Shown here one piece after another: positions 9,084-29,649 of a stretch of 34,241 nt of DNA; the first letter of the stretch is position 1; each line of letters starts with the position of its first letter. Origin of the DNA: an uncultured Flavobacteriaceae bacterium (GTDB taxonomy: Bacteria; Bacteroidota; Bacteroidia; Flavobacteriales; Flavobacteriaceae); contig CALDCO010000226.1 in the NCBI GenBank assembly GCA_937937185.1, positions 1 to 34,241 of the forward strand, written 5' to 3'. The position numbers and the translations under genes are program-made. The notes under the pieces were generated by a model. It worked only from the letters and a program-made list of their open reading frames with translations. It was not told the origin of the DNA and did no database searches.

Positions 9084-9101
9084 TTAAAGTATTATTTATA
9101 A

Positions 9102-9150
9102 TGAACTCGTTTAAACTTTTTAACAAATTTAAAAAGTTTAAACGAGTTCA
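9102..9150. terminator. Perfect 21-bp-arm hairpin after the T9SS gene (family-A related)
   Basis: Perfectly complementary arms starting TGAACTCGTTTAAAC and ending GTTTAAACGAGTTCA surround a 7-base loop (ACAAATT). It lies 18 bp after the stop codon of the propeller gene, so it probably acts as a terminator, although the U-tract is inside the arm instead of after it. Its arm matches the family-A repeat end TGAAGTGGTTTAAAC at 13 of 15 positions, and both differences are mirrored in the opposite arm. Confidence 0.7.
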
Positions 9151-9187
9151 ATTTGTACATATATATCTGTATTCTAGATTAGACCTT

Positions 9188-13939: not shown

Positions 13940-13959
13940 ACGTTTAGTATAGAAAACAT

Positions 13960-14122
13960 TGAAGTGGTTTAAACTTTTATCAATTTGCTAAAAAAATGCT
14001 TTTTTGCATCCATATTTCACAATTTTTGACTTCCGTAGCACTGCTATGCAACTAAAAAATTGCTAGATCTGGACACAAAAACACTATTTTTCACTTAAAT
14101 CAAAAAAGTTTAAACCGCTTCA
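13960..14122. repeat. Family-A palindromic repeat, long form (163 bp)
   Basis: Terminal inverted repeats TGAAGTGGTTTAAAC and GTTTAAACCGCTTCA, with one mismatch, bound this element. Inside (14020-14062) is an imperfect hairpin of about 20-base arms centred on CCGTAGCACTGCTATGC (14033-14049). There are no coding frames. The reverse complement of 29536-29612 matches its two ends with the middle missing. It lies in the gap between DUF2853 and the acyl-CoA synthetase, next to a terminator. It resembles a non-autonomous MITE or REP-type element. Confidence 0.72.
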
Positions 14123-14127
14123 TTATT

Positions 14128-14161
14128 AAAAAGCGTTACATTTTATTTTGTAACGCTTTTT
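14128..14161. terminator. Bidirectional rho-independent terminator
   Basis: Arms AAAAAGCGTTACA and TGTAACGCTTTTT are perfectly complementary with an 8-base loop. A-tract before and T-tract after let it work in both directions. It separates the convergent DUF2853 (plus) and acyl-CoA synthetase (minus) genes. Confidence 0.88.
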
Positions 14162-14173
14162 TTATGTAGTGAA

Positions 14174-15946
14174 TTAAGGCCTATAAATTTTTTCATAAAG
14201 TTCGTTATAGAGGGTCTTTATAACAGCTCGCTTCATCTTCATGGTAGGGGTTAAATGCCCCCCATCTACCGACCAAATTTCTGGGGTAAGTTCAAAACGT
14301 TTTATTTGTTCCCATTTACCAAACTTTTTATTACATTCATCTATCTCTAGTTGTATTCTATCTTTTATTTCTTTAGAGTTGGCAATATCTATTTTGTTTT
14401 TACCTATATTTTTTTTCTTAAGATCAATCCAGTCTTCAATAAATTCAAAATTGGGTTGAATAATAGCCGCAGGCATTTTTTCACCTTCACCAACAACCAT
14501 AATTTGTTCTATAAATCGCGACTGTTTTAAATCGTTTTCTAATAAAGACGGAATAACATATTTCCCGCCTGATGTTTTAAACATCTCTTTTTTGCGCCCA
14601 GTAATTTTTAAAAAACCTTCATCGTCTATTAGGCCTTTATCACCTGTATGAAAATAATTTCCAGACATAACACTTGCCGTTTTTTCAGGATCTTTAAAAT
14701 AACCTAGCATAACATTAGGCCCTTTTACTAATATTTCTCCATCGTCGGCAATCTTAACCTCTACTTCACTTATAGGCTTCCCTACCGTTCCAATTTTAAA
14801 ACCTTTATTAAGTTGGTCGTTTACAGAGATAACGGGCGAGGTTTCTGTTAAACCATACCCTTCCATAATTGGCATACCAGCGGCAGCAAATACTCTAGTT
14901 AATCGTGGCTGTAATGCAGCGCTTCCAGAAACCATTAGCTCTAAATTGCCACCAAGCCCTTCTTGCCATTTGCTAAATATAAGTTTACGTGCAATTTTTA
15001 GTTTTTGTTCATATAACCATCCATTTGCGCCATAGGGTTCATATTTTAATCCCAACTCGATGGCCCAGTAGAAGAGTTTCTTTTTTATACCACTTAAATC
15101 TGCTCCTTTGGCATATATTTTATCATATACTTTTTCATAGAGACGCGGTACTGCAGTCATAACATTAGGTTTAACCTCTTTTAGGTTATCGCTCATTTTT
15201 TCTATCGATTCAGCAAAATAAATTTCTATACCACAGTACTGATATAAATAAAGCATCATTCTTTCAAAAACATGACATACGGGAAGGAAACTTAAGGCTT
15301 TTGATTTTCCATAATCTAACGGCACGCGTTTATCACTAGCTAAAACGTTAGATACTAAGTTTTTGTGCGAAAGCATCACGCCTTTTGGTTTGCCTGTGGT
15401 TCCAGAAGTATAAATAAGGGTGGCTAAATCTGTGCTTTTTACGTTTTCTTTTCTTAGCTCTAAATCATTTTGATTCGTATCGTCTTTACCAAGTTCTAAC
15501 AATTCAGAATAATGAGGGCAACCTTCAATACGATCAAAGGAGTACACTTTTTTTAATTTAGTATTCGCTCTAATTTTATTGATTTTATCTAAGACTTCTT
15601 GGTCTGATATAAAACAATAGATAGATTCACTGTGATTAAGAACATATTGATAATCTTCGGGAGATATGGTAGGATAAATTGGCACACTTTGCGCAGCTAC
15701 TTGTAATATGCCAATATCCATTATGTTCCACTCTGTACGATTAGTAGTAGAAATAATGGCTATTTTATCGTTTTTATTTATGCCTAATTTTAAAAAGGCT
15801 CTACTAATGGCGTTCGCTTTATCTATATATTCTTTTGTAGAGGTTTTTACCCATTTGCCATCTTGTTTGGTTGCTAACGCAACATCTAGATTATAGTTTT
15901 CCATTTGGTAGTATGGAAAGTCAAAAAGTCTTGTAATTTCTATCAT
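14174..15946 (-). CDS. Long-chain fatty acid-CoA ligase (AMP-binding, FadD15-like)
   Basis: A 590-residue adenylate-forming enzyme that activates long-chain fatty acids with ATP and CoA. The ATP-binding P-loop YTSGTTGKPKG is at 179-189. The GYGLTETSP adenine motif lies in the middle, followed by YFHTGDKGLIDDEG and the hinge/lysine region ITGRKKEMFKTSGGKY. Length and motif wording match the bacterial long-chain acyl-CoA synthetases of the FAA1/FadD15 type; it is not the short MenE type, despite lying beside men genes. There is no signal peptide. It is monocistronic, flanked by the terminators at 14128-14161 and 16017-16044. Role: fatty acid uptake, degradation or phospholipid recycling. Confidence 0.92.
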   Translation of the reverse strand: MIEITRLFDFPYYQMENYNLDVALATKQDGKWVKTSTKEYIDKANAISRAFLKLGINKNDKIAIISTTNRTEWNIMDIGILQVAAQSVPIYPTISPEDYQYVLNHSESIYCFISDQEVLDKINKIRANTKLKKVYSFDRIEGCPHYSELLELGKDDTNQNDLELRKENVKSTDLATLIYTSGTTGKPKGVMLSHKNLVSNVLASDKRVPLDYGKSKALSFLPVCHVFERMMLYLYQYCGIEIYFAESIEKMSDNLKEVKPNVMTAVPRLYEKVYDKIYAKGADLSGIKKKLFYWAIELGLKYEPYGANGWLYEQKLKIARKLIFSKWQEGLGGNLELMVSGSAALQPRLTRVFAAAGMPIMEGYGLTETSPVISVNDQLNKGFKIGTVGKPISEVEVKIADDGEILVKGPNVMLGYFKDPEKTASVMSGNYFHTGDKGLIDDEGFLKITGRKKEMFKTSGGKYVIPSLLENDLKQSRFIEQIMVVGEGEKMPAAIIQPNFEFIEDWIDLKKKNIGKNKIDIANSKEIKDRIQLEIDECNKKFGKWEQIKRFELTPEIWSVDGGHLTPTMKMKRAVIKTLYNELYEKIYRP

Positions 15947-17149: not shown

Positions 17150-19552
17150 TTACTCCTTAATAAATTTGAAAGTCTTAGTTTTATTATCATGTTCTATTTT
17201 TAGCAGATACATCCCAGATGCTATCGTTGAACAATCTATTTTAGATAAGTGATTATTATTATCTTTTTCACCAATCAATTGTCCGCGAATATCATAGATT
17301 TCATATTTGTAATTAGATAGGCTGCTATTTATTTGAAGTGTGTTTTTAATTGGGTTAGGATAAATAGAAAAATTATTGGAGATATAATCTGGCGTGCTTA
17401 GCGTATCGTCTATAATTTTTACTGCGAGGTCGTCGAAATAAAAACCATCTTCCGTATCTTCCGTATCTGTAAATAATAAAAAACGAATTTTAATAGTGTT
17501 TCCAAGATAGTCACTTAAATCAATTTCCTCATACACCCACTCGTTTTGAGTGCCCTCGTATATGGGTTCATCAAAAATATCAGCTACTGTATATTTTCCA
17601 CATTGGGGTATCCATGTATCGCCATCATCTCTAGAGACTTGTAACTGCACAAAATCAAAATCAAATCCATCTGCAATATCCCATCTGGCATAAAAAGATA
17701 AACTTGCGAAATTGGCCCTTGTTAAATCTAAGGCTTCAGCAAGTTCTATAGCGTTATCTACAGCATTGCCATAATTACCATTAGGAGAATCTGTTATAGC
17801 ACTTGGAGGCGATTTGTAAACGGTTGTAGAAATACCCCAATCTGTTGCTCCCCAGTTATCTGAAATGTCATCACCAGGTTCATCTAAAATTGTATTGGTA
17901 ATGCCAAATATTTTATTAACTCTTACGGTTCTATTAAACAAACCATTATTAACGACCAAATCATAAATAACTTCTTCACCTGTAGCTATTGTTGGTTTTA
18001 AGTTTATGGCAATGTTTCCTGTTCGCTTTTCCAATAAAGACATATTGTTTTGATCTTGAGGTTGGCCAACAGAGAGAATATTAGCACTAACAGGTAAAAT
18101 AGAAACTTCGAAATTTGAAGGCGATTCAAATCCTATACTTTCAATTTCATAGTTAACATTTGCTGCAGTAGTTTCTATAAAAACCGAAGACGGTTTCTCT
18201 TCAATGTTTGCTAAATTGCCATCAATTTGAGCTGCAGCAATATTTAAAAATAGCATGCTTTTACAAATTGAAATAATCTCAGATTCTGCAGGCCAAAAAG
18301 AATCTCCAATTTCTGGAGTCATAGCATAAATTTTATTTCTTGTTCCACCCGAAGTTGTTTTTAACATGTCGTACATGAAATCGTCACTAGATCCAGATAA
18401 TTCGTATAGTCCAGAAGCTAAGATATTATTATAATTATTATCTTTTACCATATATTTAGATATGGCATTATAAAGATCATTTTCTGGGGTAGGCTTATTA
18501 TCTACATAACCAAAAGGGAATAATAAAAGTTTGGAAAAACTATGCGCATTTATAGCAATTTTAAAATTATTTTGTTCTACTAACCAGCGAATGGCTTGTG
18601 TTTCAGGTTCAGAAAAAGGGTGAGTTCCAGGATAAGTATCTCCTGGGGGGCCTGAAGTTCCACTAGTATTCCATACTTCATCACCATTTGGTGTAATGTA
18701 GGAGTAATTTCTATTAAGATCGACACCTCTTGAGCCGCCTGCGTTTTGACTTCTATTTTTACGCCACAGTCCGCCACCATTGGGATTTGTAGTTTGGTTG
18801 TAGATATAACCATCTGGATTTAAACAAGGCACAAAAAACAACTCTGAATTATCTACAATAGATTTTATTTCATCGCTAGTACTATAATTTTCTAATAAAT
18901 ACCACATGTAGAAAATGGTTTGTTGAAGCGTGGTTGCCTCTCTAGCATGATGAACTGCTGTATATAAAATTTGCGATTCTGATGCCGATTCATTTGAGGA
19001 TGGATTATCAGATATTTTTACGTATTGTATTTTTCGTCCCTCTTCCGTAGTAAATGTGCTTATATCGGACCTTGAGCTTATTAAATCAGGATAAAGGGCT
19101 TTCATTTCATCCAATTCGTCAATCATCTCATCGTAGGTTAGAAAACCGCCCATAGTACCGTTGTTATAATTTACGGGTGTTTCATAATTTGTGATTGGAT
19201 TTTCCTCACAAAAGGCATTAGCAGTAGCGTTATTGTTGCTAACATACCTAGAGCTTTGAGGGTTATTTTGGTCTAAATAAAATTGTTTTACGTCTTCAAT
19301 AATAAGCTCTACGCTATTGCCATTGTTTTTTGCAGTTTCTATTTGCGATTGGGGGAAATCTGATATAATGAAGTTGTTTTTTTTATGGTGACCATGATCT
19401 ACTGCTAAGCCAAGCTTAGATAGTTTATTAAGGTCTTCTTTAGAACTGTAATAAATTTTAGCGCGGTGGTATTTCTCAATACTAGCGTTCTGAGAATAAA
19501 TAGAAGTACACATAAAAAATAGTGTAATGTATAAAAAGCGTTTCATAAGCAT
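17150..19552 (-). CDS. T9SS-secreted M14 zinc carboxypeptidase, copy 1
   Basis: An 800-residue secreted metallocarboxypeptidase. The signal peptide (1-20) ends at IYSQ. A propeptide-like region runs to about 100, and the M14 catalytic domain spans about 130-440. Zinc ligands are H202 and E205 (HHARE) and H337 (NAHSF). N280-R281 (DLNRN) bind the substrate carboxylate, and E414 (MTPEIGDSFW) is the catalytic glutamate. A beta-rich domain of about 560-720, resembling the immune-inhibitor A/MAM jelly-roll (GFYFDDL), follows. A type A T9SS sorting domain (SIYPNPIKNTL) ends the protein. The upstream neighbour at 19661 is a tandem paralogue. Expected role: extracellular peptide digestion. Confidence 0.93.
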   Translation of the reverse strand: MLMKRFLYITLFFMCTSIYSQNASIEKYHRAKIYYSSKEDLNKLSKLGLAVDHGHHKKNNFIISDFPQSQIETAKNNGNSVELIIEDVKQFYLDQNNPQSSRYVSNNNATANAFCEENPITNYETPVNYNNGTMGGFLTYDEMIDELDEMKALYPDLISSRSDISTFTTEEGRKIQYVKISDNPSSNESASESQILYTAVHHAREATTLQQTIFYMWYLLENYSTSDEIKSIVDNSELFFVPCLNPDGYIYNQTTNPNGGGLWRKNRSQNAGGSRGVDLNRNYSYITPNGDEVWNTSGTSGPPGDTYPGTHPFSEPETQAIRWLVEQNNFKIAINAHSFSKLLLFPFGYVDNKPTPENDLYNAISKYMVKDNNYNNILASGLYELSGSSDDFMYDMLKTTSGGTRNKIYAMTPEIGDSFWPAESEIISICKSMLFLNIAAAQIDGNLANIEEKPSSVFIETTAANVNYEIESIGFESPSNFEVSILPVSANILSVGQPQDQNNMSLLEKRTGNIAINLKPTIATGEEVIYDLVVNNGLFNRTVRVNKIFGITNTILDEPGDDISDNWGATDWGISTTVYKSPPSAITDSPNGNYGNAVDNAIELAEALDLTRANFASLSFYARWDIADGFDFDFVQLQVSRDDGDTWIPQCGKYTVADIFDEPIYEGTQNEWVYEEIDLSDYLGNTIKIRFLLFTDTEDTEDGFYFDDLAVKIIDDTLSTPDYISNNFSIYPNPIKNTLQINSSLSNYKYEIYDIRGQLIGEKDNNNHLSKIDCSTIASGMYLLKIEHDNKTKTFKFIKE

Positions 19553-19660
19553 ATAATTTTTTAAAATATTAGAATGCTGTAAAACTATGTTTACTGAAGA
19601 ATAATTAAGACCATTATGAGAAGATTATGAGTACTTAAAATTAATTATATGAGTTTTTTA

Positions 19661-22060
19661 TTAGTTTTTTATAAACTTAAAAGTCTTATTCTTATCGTCT
19701 TTAGTAATTTTTAGAAGGTATATTCCAGGAGATAAATTTGAACAGTCAATAGTAGAATTATCATGATTGTCCTCACTTTTTATAATTACTTGACCTTGTA
19801 TAGAATACATGTTATACTCATAGTTAGGCAAATTACTTTTAATGTGTAATTCATTTTTTACTGGATTAGGAAATAAACTAAAGTTATTCTCAATAAAATT
19901 TGTAGTGCTAAGCGTGGTGTCTATTACATTTACAGTTAAATCATCAAAATAAAAACCATCTTTTGTTGCACCTCTATCTGTAACTAATTGAAAACGGATA
20001 ATGATGTTTTCACCTAGGTAATCATTTAGGTCAATTTTTTCTAAAACCCATGTATTTTGTTCTCCATCATACAAAGGTTCATTATTAGCGTCTTTTTGTT
20101 CTGCTACTCCAAGATTGGTATATTTTCCACATTGAGGAATCCAGCTCGTCCCGTTATTAGTAGATACTTGAACTTGTACATAATCGAAGTTATTTTCGAT
20201 AGACCACTTGGCGTAAAACGATAAGCTTGCATTTGTTGCGGTAGTTAAATTTAGTGCATTGGTTAATCTAATCGTCTTATTTTGATTATTGCTATAGTTT
20301 CCATTTGGGGAATCTGTAATTGAGCTTGTAGCCGATTTGTATTCTGTTGTTGATATTCCCCATTGTGTATTGTCCCAATTGGTGGTATCATCTCCAGCTT
20401 CATCTAGAATAGTTATAGGTGTTCCAAACTTCTTGGTGATTATTGTTTTTTTGTCATAGCTACCATTGTTAATAACAAGCTCGAAAACGATATCTTCTCC
20501 GTTGCTAATTCCAGAATCTAAATTTATAGCAATACTACCGTTGCGTTCTTGCATTAATGCCAAATTATTATAATTGTTTGGCGCACCTACAGAGGTGATG
20601 TTGGTACTAATAGGATTTATTGATACTTTAAAATTACCAGAATTTTGAAGACCAATTCGTTGTATTCTATAATCGATAGTAGCAGAAGTGGTTTCAATAA
20701 ACAAGGATTCAGTAGTCTCTGTAAGCAAGGCAAAGTTTTGAATGGTTTGCGCAGCCGATAGGTTTAAAAACATCATGTTTTTACAAGTCGATATAATTTT
20801 TGAAGCGGGTTCCCAAAAAGAAGTGCCTATTTCAGGGGTCATTGCATAAACTTTTTCTCTAGAGTCTCCAGAGGTTGTAGTGAGCTCACCGTACATAAAA
20901 TCATCGCTAGCTCCAGCTGCGGCATATAAATTGGAAGTGATGATGTTATTATAATCATTATCGCTTACCAAGAATTCTGAAACCGCTTTAAATAAGGGAT
21001 CCTCAGGGGTAGGTTTGTTATCCGTATAAGCAAAAGGGTATAATAGTAAATTTCCAAAACTGTGCGCATTTATAGCCATTTTAAAGTTGTTTTGCTCAAC
21101 AAGCCAACGAATGGCTTTATTTTCGGGTTCAGAAAAAGGAGCTGTGCCTGCATAGCTACCACCATTAGGGCCGGAGGTTCCAACTGTATTCCATGTTTCT
21201 TTACCATTAGGCGCAATGTAGGAGTAATTTCTATTATTATCGACACCAATTGTTCTTCCGTTATTTCTTCTATTTTTTCGCCACAATCCGCCACCTCTGG
21301 GGTTTGTCGTTTCATTATGTATGTAACCGTCAGGGTTTATACAAGGCACAAAAAATAATTCTGTATTTTCTACAATGGCTTTAATTTCGTCATCTTTACT
21401 GTAGTTTTCTAATAAATACCACATATAAAATATAGTTTGCTGAAGCGATAAGGGCTCTCTAGCATGATGTATGGCTGTGTATAACATTTGAGGTTCTGTA
21501 GAAGATTCATTCACTGAGGGATTATCCGATATTTTTACATATTGAATGGCTCTTCCTTGAGAGGTCTTAAAGGTACTAATATTGGCTCTTGTGGTAATTA
21601 AATTAGGATAAAGCCTTTTCATATCGTCTAATTCTTGTAACATTTCAGAATAGGTTAAATACCCTCCCATCGACCCATTGTTATAATTTACAGGGGTTGT
21701 ATATGTTATTGGAGCGGCACTACATGAAAGGTTCACACTTTCAGCTTCTTCACCAACGTAATGGATGCTTTTGGGATCATTTTGGTCTTTATAAAATTGC
21801 TGTACATTATTAATGGTAATTTCTACTTTATTCCCATTTTTTCTAGCCGCATCTATTTCTAACTGTGAAAAATCAGATTCAATGTAAACCCCTTTTTTAT
21901 GAATACCATGGTCAAGCGGGATTCCTAGAGCACTTAATTGGTTTAAATCGCCGCTAGATTGGTAATAAATTTTTGCTCTATGGTGGTATTCATTATTTGG
22001 ATTTTGAGAATAAACCAAAGCACTTGTTACAATTAGAAGGGCAATTAGTAAAGTTTTCAT
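19661..22060 (-). CDS. T9SS-secreted M14 zinc carboxypeptidase, copy 2
   Basis: A 799-residue paralogue of the next gene with the same domain order: signal peptide (1-18, ending VYSQ), propeptide-like region, M14 domain, jelly-roll domain and T9SS sorting domain (SLFPNPVKNEL). Zinc ligands H199, E202 (HHARE) and H333 are kept, as are R277 and catalytic E410 (MTPEIGTSFW). The motif before the substrate-binding Asn-Arg reads VDNNRN instead of the usual VDLNRN, and the loop near residues 200-206 differs (REPLSLQ against REATTLQ). Both suggest a shift in specificity. The 108 bp between the two genes has no terminator, so they may be co-transcribed. A family-B repeat lies upstream. Confidence 0.93.
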   Translation of the reverse strand: MKTLLIALLIVTSALVYSQNPNNEYHHRAKIYYQSSGDLNQLSALGIPLDHGIHKKGVYIESDFSQLEIDAARKNGNKVEITINNVQQFYKDQNDPKSIHYVGEEAESVNLSCSAAPITYTTPVNYNNGSMGGYLTYSEMLQELDDMKRLYPNLITTRANISTFKTSQGRAIQYVKISDNPSVNESSTEPQMLYTAIHHAREPLSLQQTIFYMWYLLENYSKDDEIKAIVENTELFFVPCINPDGYIHNETTNPRGGGLWRKNRRNNGRTIGVDNNRNYSYIAPNGKETWNTVGTSGPNGGSYAGTAPFSEPENKAIRWLVEQNNFKMAINAHSFGNLLLYPFAYTDNKPTPEDPLFKAVSEFLVSDNDYNNIITSNLYAAAGASDDFMYGELTTTSGDSREKVYAMTPEIGTSFWEPASKIISTCKNMMFLNLSAAQTIQNFALLTETTESLFIETTSATIDYRIQRIGLQNSGNFKVSINPISTNITSVGAPNNYNNLALMQERNGSIAINLDSGISNGEDIVFELVINNGSYDKKTIITKKFGTPITILDEAGDDTTNWDNTQWGISTTEYKSATSSITDSPNGNYSNNQNKTIRLTNALNLTTATNASLSFYAKWSIENNFDYVQVQVSTNNGTSWIPQCGKYTNLGVAEQKDANNEPLYDGEQNTWVLEKIDLNDYLGENIIIRFQLVTDRGATKDGFYFDDLTVNVIDTTLSTTNFIENNFSLFPNPVKNELHIKSNLPNYEYNMYSIQGQVIIKSEDNHDNSTIDCSNLSPGIYLLKITKDDKNKTFKFIKN

Positions 22061-29436: not shown

Positions 29437-29535
29437 TAGTACATCCTCAAGTGTTTCGTTTGTTTTTTTAATATTAATGGGATGCATTTAAATAAACCAA
29501 ACGAGTTAATTTTTTTTATGAATGCGCAAAGGTAA

Positions 29536-29612
29536 TGAAGTGGTTTAAACTTTTTTGATTTAAGTGAAAAAAAGCATTTTTTTAGCCAATTGAAAAAGTT
29601 TAAACCACTTTA
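29536..29612. repeat. Family-A palindromic repeat, short form (77 bp)
   Basis: Outer arms TGAAGTGGTTTAAAC and GTTTAAACCACTTTA. The reverse complement aligns with the long copy at 13960-14122 through GCTAAAAAAATGC, then resumes at TTTTTCACTTAAATC, as if about 86 internal bases had been deleted between T-runs. It lies upstream of both the rRNA methyltransferase and the lipoprotein gene, between divergent starts. Confidence 0.72.
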
Positions 29613-29649
29613 ATTATAAAGTTTATCTGTTTAGGGGTTTTAGAGTTTA

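Follow-up and report, generated by a model that had tools for sequence, protein, structure and literature searches.

Among the described repeats that resemble the elements reported here are ERIC and Correia, which insert at TA. These repeats, which PMC10969869 mentions, too are long imperfect intergenic palindromes (100-200 bp) of family- or genus-wide occurrence in bacteria, with internally deleted forms and a possible effect on mRNA. They have another sequence and other hosts, whereas the family reported here has a partner IS and makes a 3-bp target duplication. Prokaryotic MITEs are known as a kind, and the same review (PMC10969869) presents them, like our elements, as short, gene-free, intergenic and multicopy, with inverted ends, a target duplication and a partner IS with the same ends. 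Here, however, the interior is not derived from the partner, the whole length is palindromic and covarying, and the distribution extends to at least 41 of the 237 sampled genera of one family. The MITE of Cardinium (PMC9769881) is likewise a Bacteroidota MITE beside an identified IS, but its parental element belongs to the IS982 family, and it is described as derived from that element and confined to one strain. Finally, IS5-family IS (NF033580) have the same kind of terminal repeats and a 3-bp duplication; they encode a transposase and are 927-929 bp long, whereas our element codes for nothing and has 161 bp.

The window analyzed in this work is a stretch of 34,241 nucleotides from an uncultured Flavobacteriaceae bacterium (assembly GCA_937937185.1, contig CALDCO010000226.1). 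It carries copies of what is very probably a flavobacterial family of MITEs, about 160 bp long, gene-free, palindromic and moved in trans by an IS5-family transposase, those in this genome probably being relics. The flavobacterial hairpin family itself seems undescribed: we found no description of it in the literature searched, which included few subscription journals and no ISfinder.

Copies in the window and in its genome

The features of the window are given in Table 1. The 161-bp element has inverted ends of 19 bp and lacks a transposase gene, as befits a MITE, and the ORF on its 5' side presumably encodes a DUF2853 protein. The original prediction had related this copy to a shorter one by an internal deletion of about 86 bases, and the alignment agrees: between the long copy and the reverse complement of the short one, one large block is gone between two T-runs (161 - 75 = 86 bp). 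The location it gave for the two copies (13960-14122 and 29536-29612) holds, but their extent was one base too long on either side of both, because the outer T and A are part of the 3-bp target duplication. A third window copy, of 47 bp, was absent from it. Elsewhere in the window, two adjacent ORFs of 800 and 799 aa (17150-22060) are related, with 77% identical DNA over 300 bp, and represent a tandem duplication.

Table 1. Coordinates of the elements and neighboring features in the window
Feature	Position	Strand	Basis
Full-length palindromic MITE, 161 bp	13961..14121	- (strand of apex motif CATAGCAGTGCTACGG)	Sequence, genome matches, fold
Left target duplication, ATT	13958..13960	.	Flanks
Right target duplication, ATT	14122..14124	.	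Flanks
Left terminal inverted repeat, GAAGTGGTTTAAACTTTTA	13961..13979	+	IS5-family IS has the same kind of end
Right terminal inverted repeat	14103..14121	-	Sequence
Conserved hairpin apex	14033..14048	-	Sequence, family alignment
Internally deleted copy, 75 bp	29537..29611	+	Spacer of two divergent ORFs
AAT duplications of the 75-bp copy	29534-29536 and 29612-29614		Flanks
47-bp copy, little beyond two GAACTCG-type ends	9103..9149	.	Sequence
AAT duplications of the 47-bp copy	9100-9102 and 9150-9152		Flanks
Upstream ORF, 113 aa	13598..13939	+	Gene prediction, orthologs in G001 and G002
Terminator-like hairpin of the 113-aa ORF, parted from it by the insertion	14130..14163	+	Sequence, empty-site comparison

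A search of the window genome's own 3.54-Mb assembly gave matches spanning 151-165 bp at 19 places. Among the 71 rows of this search, places recur, since the palindromic element matches itself on both strands. The 13-mer AAGTGGTTTAAAC occurs 55 times in this genome, against 0 for the reversed control pattern. In the fetched loci, we identified 32 pairs of ends, namely 19 of 150-166 bp, 11 of 47-97 bp and two longer pairings (281 and 719 bp) without duplication; an exact 3-bp duplication flanks 15 of the 19 full-length copies and 9 of the 11 short ones. Further copies, as the original prediction would have it, are thus present, about 30 in the window genome and others in many related genomes.

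The pairwise identity of the full-length copies in the window genome ranges from 65 to 96%, and since its median is only 88%, the expansion in this genome is not recent. Five two-ended copies of 75-97 bp (on contigs C105, C112, C312 and C258, and in the window) have different deletion points when compared by eye, so that deletion recurs, and the short copies look like separate deletions in place, not one short form that spread. An internally deleted copy, initially taken as a sign of mobility, is therefore not evidence of it by itself.

Such repeats break assemblies. For example, contigs C3, C91 and C177 of the window genome start or stop within an element. Three contigs (C300, C215 and C177; L012, L013 and L025) have a common right flank of an element, and the left flanks of L012 and L013 differ, which is either recombination between copies or an assembly artefact. 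The genome also has another repeat family, of about 160 bp or more (L075, L017, L053 and L065), with a 50-bp copy of our element inserted there.

Target duplications and empty sites

The target-site duplications that the original prediction proposed to look for are 3 bp long. They are exact in 107 of 153 two-ended full-length elements (140-170 bp, over the flavobacterial loci collected), against a chance expectation of 21 when the right flanks were re-dealt (maximum 37 in 2000 trials). If the boundary is moved by 1-3 bp, only 0-9 of the 153 elements keep identical flanks, and identity over 4 bp occurs once. Because flank identity peaks at that boundary, both the element ends and the length of the duplication are fixed. 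The duplications are AT-rich (ATT 30, AAT 27, TAT 12, ATA 10, and others) and occur also in 23 of 32 shorter elements; 46 of the 153 full-length elements have no exact duplication.

Empty sites, which the original prediction proposed to look for in relatives, were found for the window site and for two nested insertions. The window site is empty in two genomes of the same genus (G001 and G002), where the ortholog of the 113-aa ORF leads directly to the terminator hairpin, whereas the element plus its ATT stands between the two in the window. Small gaps near the junction in this alignment are of the sort to be expected between species. An Aquimarina contig has an element with TCTTGAC-type ends nested in one with TTTAAAC-type ends (L219), and this locus, minus the inserted element and one ATT, aligns with L222 without gaps at the junction. 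In the window genome, a 50-bp copy flanked by ATC on both sides breaks another repeat (L075 versus L017 and L053). These are the three clear empty sites (L001, L219 and L075) among 188 junction queries, of which just 8 provided all of the 180 spanning rows. The rows of L049 were discounted, as they matched its own place under other locus identifiers, those of L214, L219 and L294 are mostly matches to neighboring or nested family copies, and L333 was set aside with one side covered by 42 bp only. The site of the 75-bp copy (29537) has a counterpart in G001, an orthologous pair of divergent genes with no element between them, but the divergence of this spacer precludes an empty site exact to the base. 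On the other side of the 161-bp element (window 13940-14180), the gene order shifts: the 113-aa ORF is followed by an ORF of 590 aa in the window, whereas in G001 and G002 the next ORF has about 300 aa.

The ends of the elements contain T-runs and a terminator adjoins the window copy, as would be the case if the repeats were generic T-rich terminators alike by chance. We attach a negligible probability to this explanation: the actual terminator is the separate hairpin at 14130-14163, the elements have target duplications, and they are alike over 151-165 bp, full-length copies that refute a chance similarity of terminators.

An IS5-family partner with the same ends

The complete related genome G150 has at least four pairs of the end pattern 927-929 bp apart; G127 was also scanned for this pattern, without match. 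The pairs of G150 enclose a transposase of 290 aa with DUF4096 and DDE (DDE_Tnp_1) domains, which matches the IS5-family equivalog NF033580 of NCBIfam (119.6 bits versus a cut-off of 110). Among three copies of this IS, any two differ by one or two positions; the fourth copy has 87% identity, and 3-bp duplications flank three of the four. Most copies pair one 19-bp end of the kind GAAGTGATTTAAACTTTTT with one of the kind GAACTCATTTAAACTTTTT, whereas in a small element the two ends are alike in kind. G150 also harbors palindromic elements of 160-162 bp, at least 14 in number, and an exact duplication flanks 10 of them. Relatives of the transposase at E<=1e-20 were found in 16 of 397 genomes, and those IS that could be bounded (in G066, G321, G387 and G076) have such ends together with a 3-bp duplication. 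When all loci are pooled, a 3-bp duplication flanks 11 of the 16 pairs of IS size (902-929 bp), a count that leaves out two pairs of 893 bp without one (L166 and L175).

When the interiors of 151 elements were compared with the IS, they gave short AT-rich matches only (best E 0.004). Since the interior has no homology beyond these, the element did not arise from the IS by internal deletion and falls outside the MITE subtype that descends from its partner in this way.

In the window genome, we identified no relative of the G150 transposase at E<=1e-10, and there is no transposase among the inspected window ORFs of at least 100 aa, as had been stated from the start. The same-genus G001 has one relative, broken by stops, with matching ends and no duplication. 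A transposase gene with the same ends, which the original prediction proposed to search for, exists in the IS5-family IS of G150 and other genomes, including those of other genera, and was not found in the window genome at that threshold. The elements of the window genome therefore probably date from an earlier period of transposition and are now relics. By comparison of sequences, we establish the ends, the duplications, the empty sites, the copy number and the existence in other genomes of IS with the same ends. We infer from these that an IS5-type transposase moved the elements. It (DUF4096 plus DDE, in an IS of about 927 bp) would recognize the common 19-bp ends and mobilize the elements in trans, with insertion into AT-rich intergenic DNA and a 3-bp target duplication. 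The copies of the window genome are presumably immobile now and may decay through point mutation and internal deletions between A/T runs, and the transposase was presumably lost after use in those carrier genomes that have no partner.

The elements are widespread in the family. Matches at E<=1e-5 were found in 5 of 60 relatives, and none of the 23 genomes from the order's other families had one. At E<=1e-7, there is a match in at least 49 of 397 sampled genomes of the family and in at least 41 of 237 genera, own genome included; these are lower bounds, with two candidates scored per genome. Five copies from another genus (G201) have a median identity of 87% with those of the window genome, like the 88% among the latter, whereas eleven copies from the same genus reach a median of only 74%. 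As the copies of the other genus are closer than those of the same genus, this suggests that the family spread horizontally.

Besides the TTTAAAC-type ends, a second end type, GAACTCATCTTGACTTTTT, occurs in at least 107 stretches, in Aquimarina, Snuella, Flavivirga, Lutibacter, Galbibacter, Kordia and others. Of 80 such loci listed, 42 have a partner end at a distance of 157-162 bp. An intact, roughly 900-bp IS bounded by TCTTGAC ends was found neither in the sites of 4 genomes nor in loci L202-L281 (80) nor in the listed sites of 7 more genomes. Flavivirga aquatica has a decayed IS5 relative of 538 bp with TCTTGAC ends and ATT on both sides, a single case in which the far end is off by two bases. 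The IS5 relatives of the Aquimarina genomes have TTTAAAC-type or related ends, and next to a GAAGTC-type end in Snuella no transposase relative was detected within the 3.3 kb fetched.

These data bear on the possibility that another transposase moves the element and that the IS5-type IS uses the same sites or picked the ends up. Of the 49 carriers, defined by an element match, most (43) show no transposase relative at E<=1e-20, and the failure to find an intact IS with TCTTGAC ends in the loci searched points the same way. However, the IS and the elements have the same ends and an equal length of duplication, TCTTGAC ends do occur on a decayed IS5 relative, and the elements co-occur with the IS5 group: there is an element match in 6 of the 16 genomes with a transposase relative (E<=1e-20) versus 43 of the 381 without (Fisher p 0.008, kinship uncorrected). 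We regard another transposase as improbable.

The original prediction had left the choice between a MITE mobilized in trans and a REP/BIME-type family. REP/BIME-like palindromes are spread by RAYT, a Y1-type tyrosine transposase, which makes no target duplication. Our palindromes are intergenic and the genome has seven Y1_Tnp (PF01797) matches, as this alternative would have it, but the loci of these matches lack the ends in question, the elements have 3-bp duplications, and their ends are those of a DDE-type IS. Hence, we consider a RAYT origin highly improbable. In contrast, mobilization of a MITE in trans is supported by an IS5-family IS that shares the ends and the 3-bp duplications, by the empty sites, by the family alignment and by the lack of a transposase among the inspected window ORFs. 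A frame of 497 aa on contig C85 (L103, 373-1866, minus strand) encodes a Y1_Tnp (RAYT-like) domain followed by a coproporphyrinogen III oxidase domain, which is complete; each exceeds the Pfam cut-off, and the frame is either a fusion or an insertion upstream of the start.

Conserved hairpin cores and their ends

The window copy folds end to end into a single imperfect hairpin, with a z-score of -8.4 as RNA and -5.7 as DNA. The family alignment that had been suggested could be built, with 41 diverse copies and a conserved apex, and 25 of its 46 pairs change on both sides yet remain paired. This alignment (A1) holds 41 of 46 non-redundant rows (L064, L108, L145, L242 and L308 were omitted), from a collection that left out elements with a weak apex. 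Splitting the copies by motif gave two core types, in which L224 and L258 may be misplaced. In type I, the inner pairs keep 93% of their pairing, with 62 compensatory cells, where shuffling gives a mean of 22 (maximum 34 in 300) and sliding the pairs gives 9 to 23. Type II has 16 compensatory cells versus a shuffle mean of 5 (maximum 12). Covariation alone is no proof of selection, because template switching can correct palindromes, but inspection by eye shows that the copies also retain an A.C mismatch at the apex and the internal loops. The hairpin is unusually well conserved.

None of 102 elements lies within an ORF over 100 aa, and between co-directional genes (n=59) 41 are on the strand of the genes and 18 on the opposite one (p 0.004), both counts resting on crude gene calls. 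Together with the covariation over the whole length and the conserved apex, the intergenic location and the strand bias would fit an element that is mainly a functional structured RNA or a regulatory hairpin of host genes, mobile by chance. However, template switching can yield covariation in palindromes, the gene calls are crude, the positions are scattered, and Rfam 15 gave no match at gathering score in the window, with matches far below threshold at the element. We find such a primary role unlikely, if well worth keeping in mind; it is compatible with the MITE reading and would add to it.

Some loci have a more complex structure. In Flavivirga sp. 57AJ16 (L252, 1775-2095), a different palindromic repeat, flanked by an apparent duplication of several bases, lies within the apex of a MITE of the family. 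A MITE of 752 bp in Flavivirga aquimarina (L265, 1271-2022) has a long insert with two similar halves in its core and TCA on both sides. On contig C25 of the window genome (L057, 3183-4450), two inverted solo ends about 1.27 kb apart frame a gene that we take to be aminotransferase-like; we rejected the pair as an autonomous element, because its ends share one arm type and the gene does not encode a transposase.

The two related core types are each found with both TTTAAAC-type and TCTTGAC-type ends. Both cores have TTTAAAC ends in G150 and TCTTGAC ends, in one copy each, in G332; these counts depend on the way in which loci were retrieved, and the combination of core II with TTTAAAC ends consists of the two G150 copies only. 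At L242, the left arm of one kind is, by eye, joined to the right arm of the other. The palindromic core might therefore be a long-lived module that outlives successive IS5-type partners in Flavobacteriaceae, both ends changing together to suit the resident transposase, an idea that we put forward tentatively and hold to be rather doubtful as it stands. If it is true, the core hairpin itself would be under selection, as RNA or as DNA.

With these elements, flavobacteria gain an ERIC-like family of repeats with an identified IS5-type partner, and because the partner is identified, movement in trans is directly testable. The presence of two end types on conserved cores makes the family a natural case for studying the survival of gene-free elements once their transposase is lost, and for asking whether the conserved hairpin serves the host.
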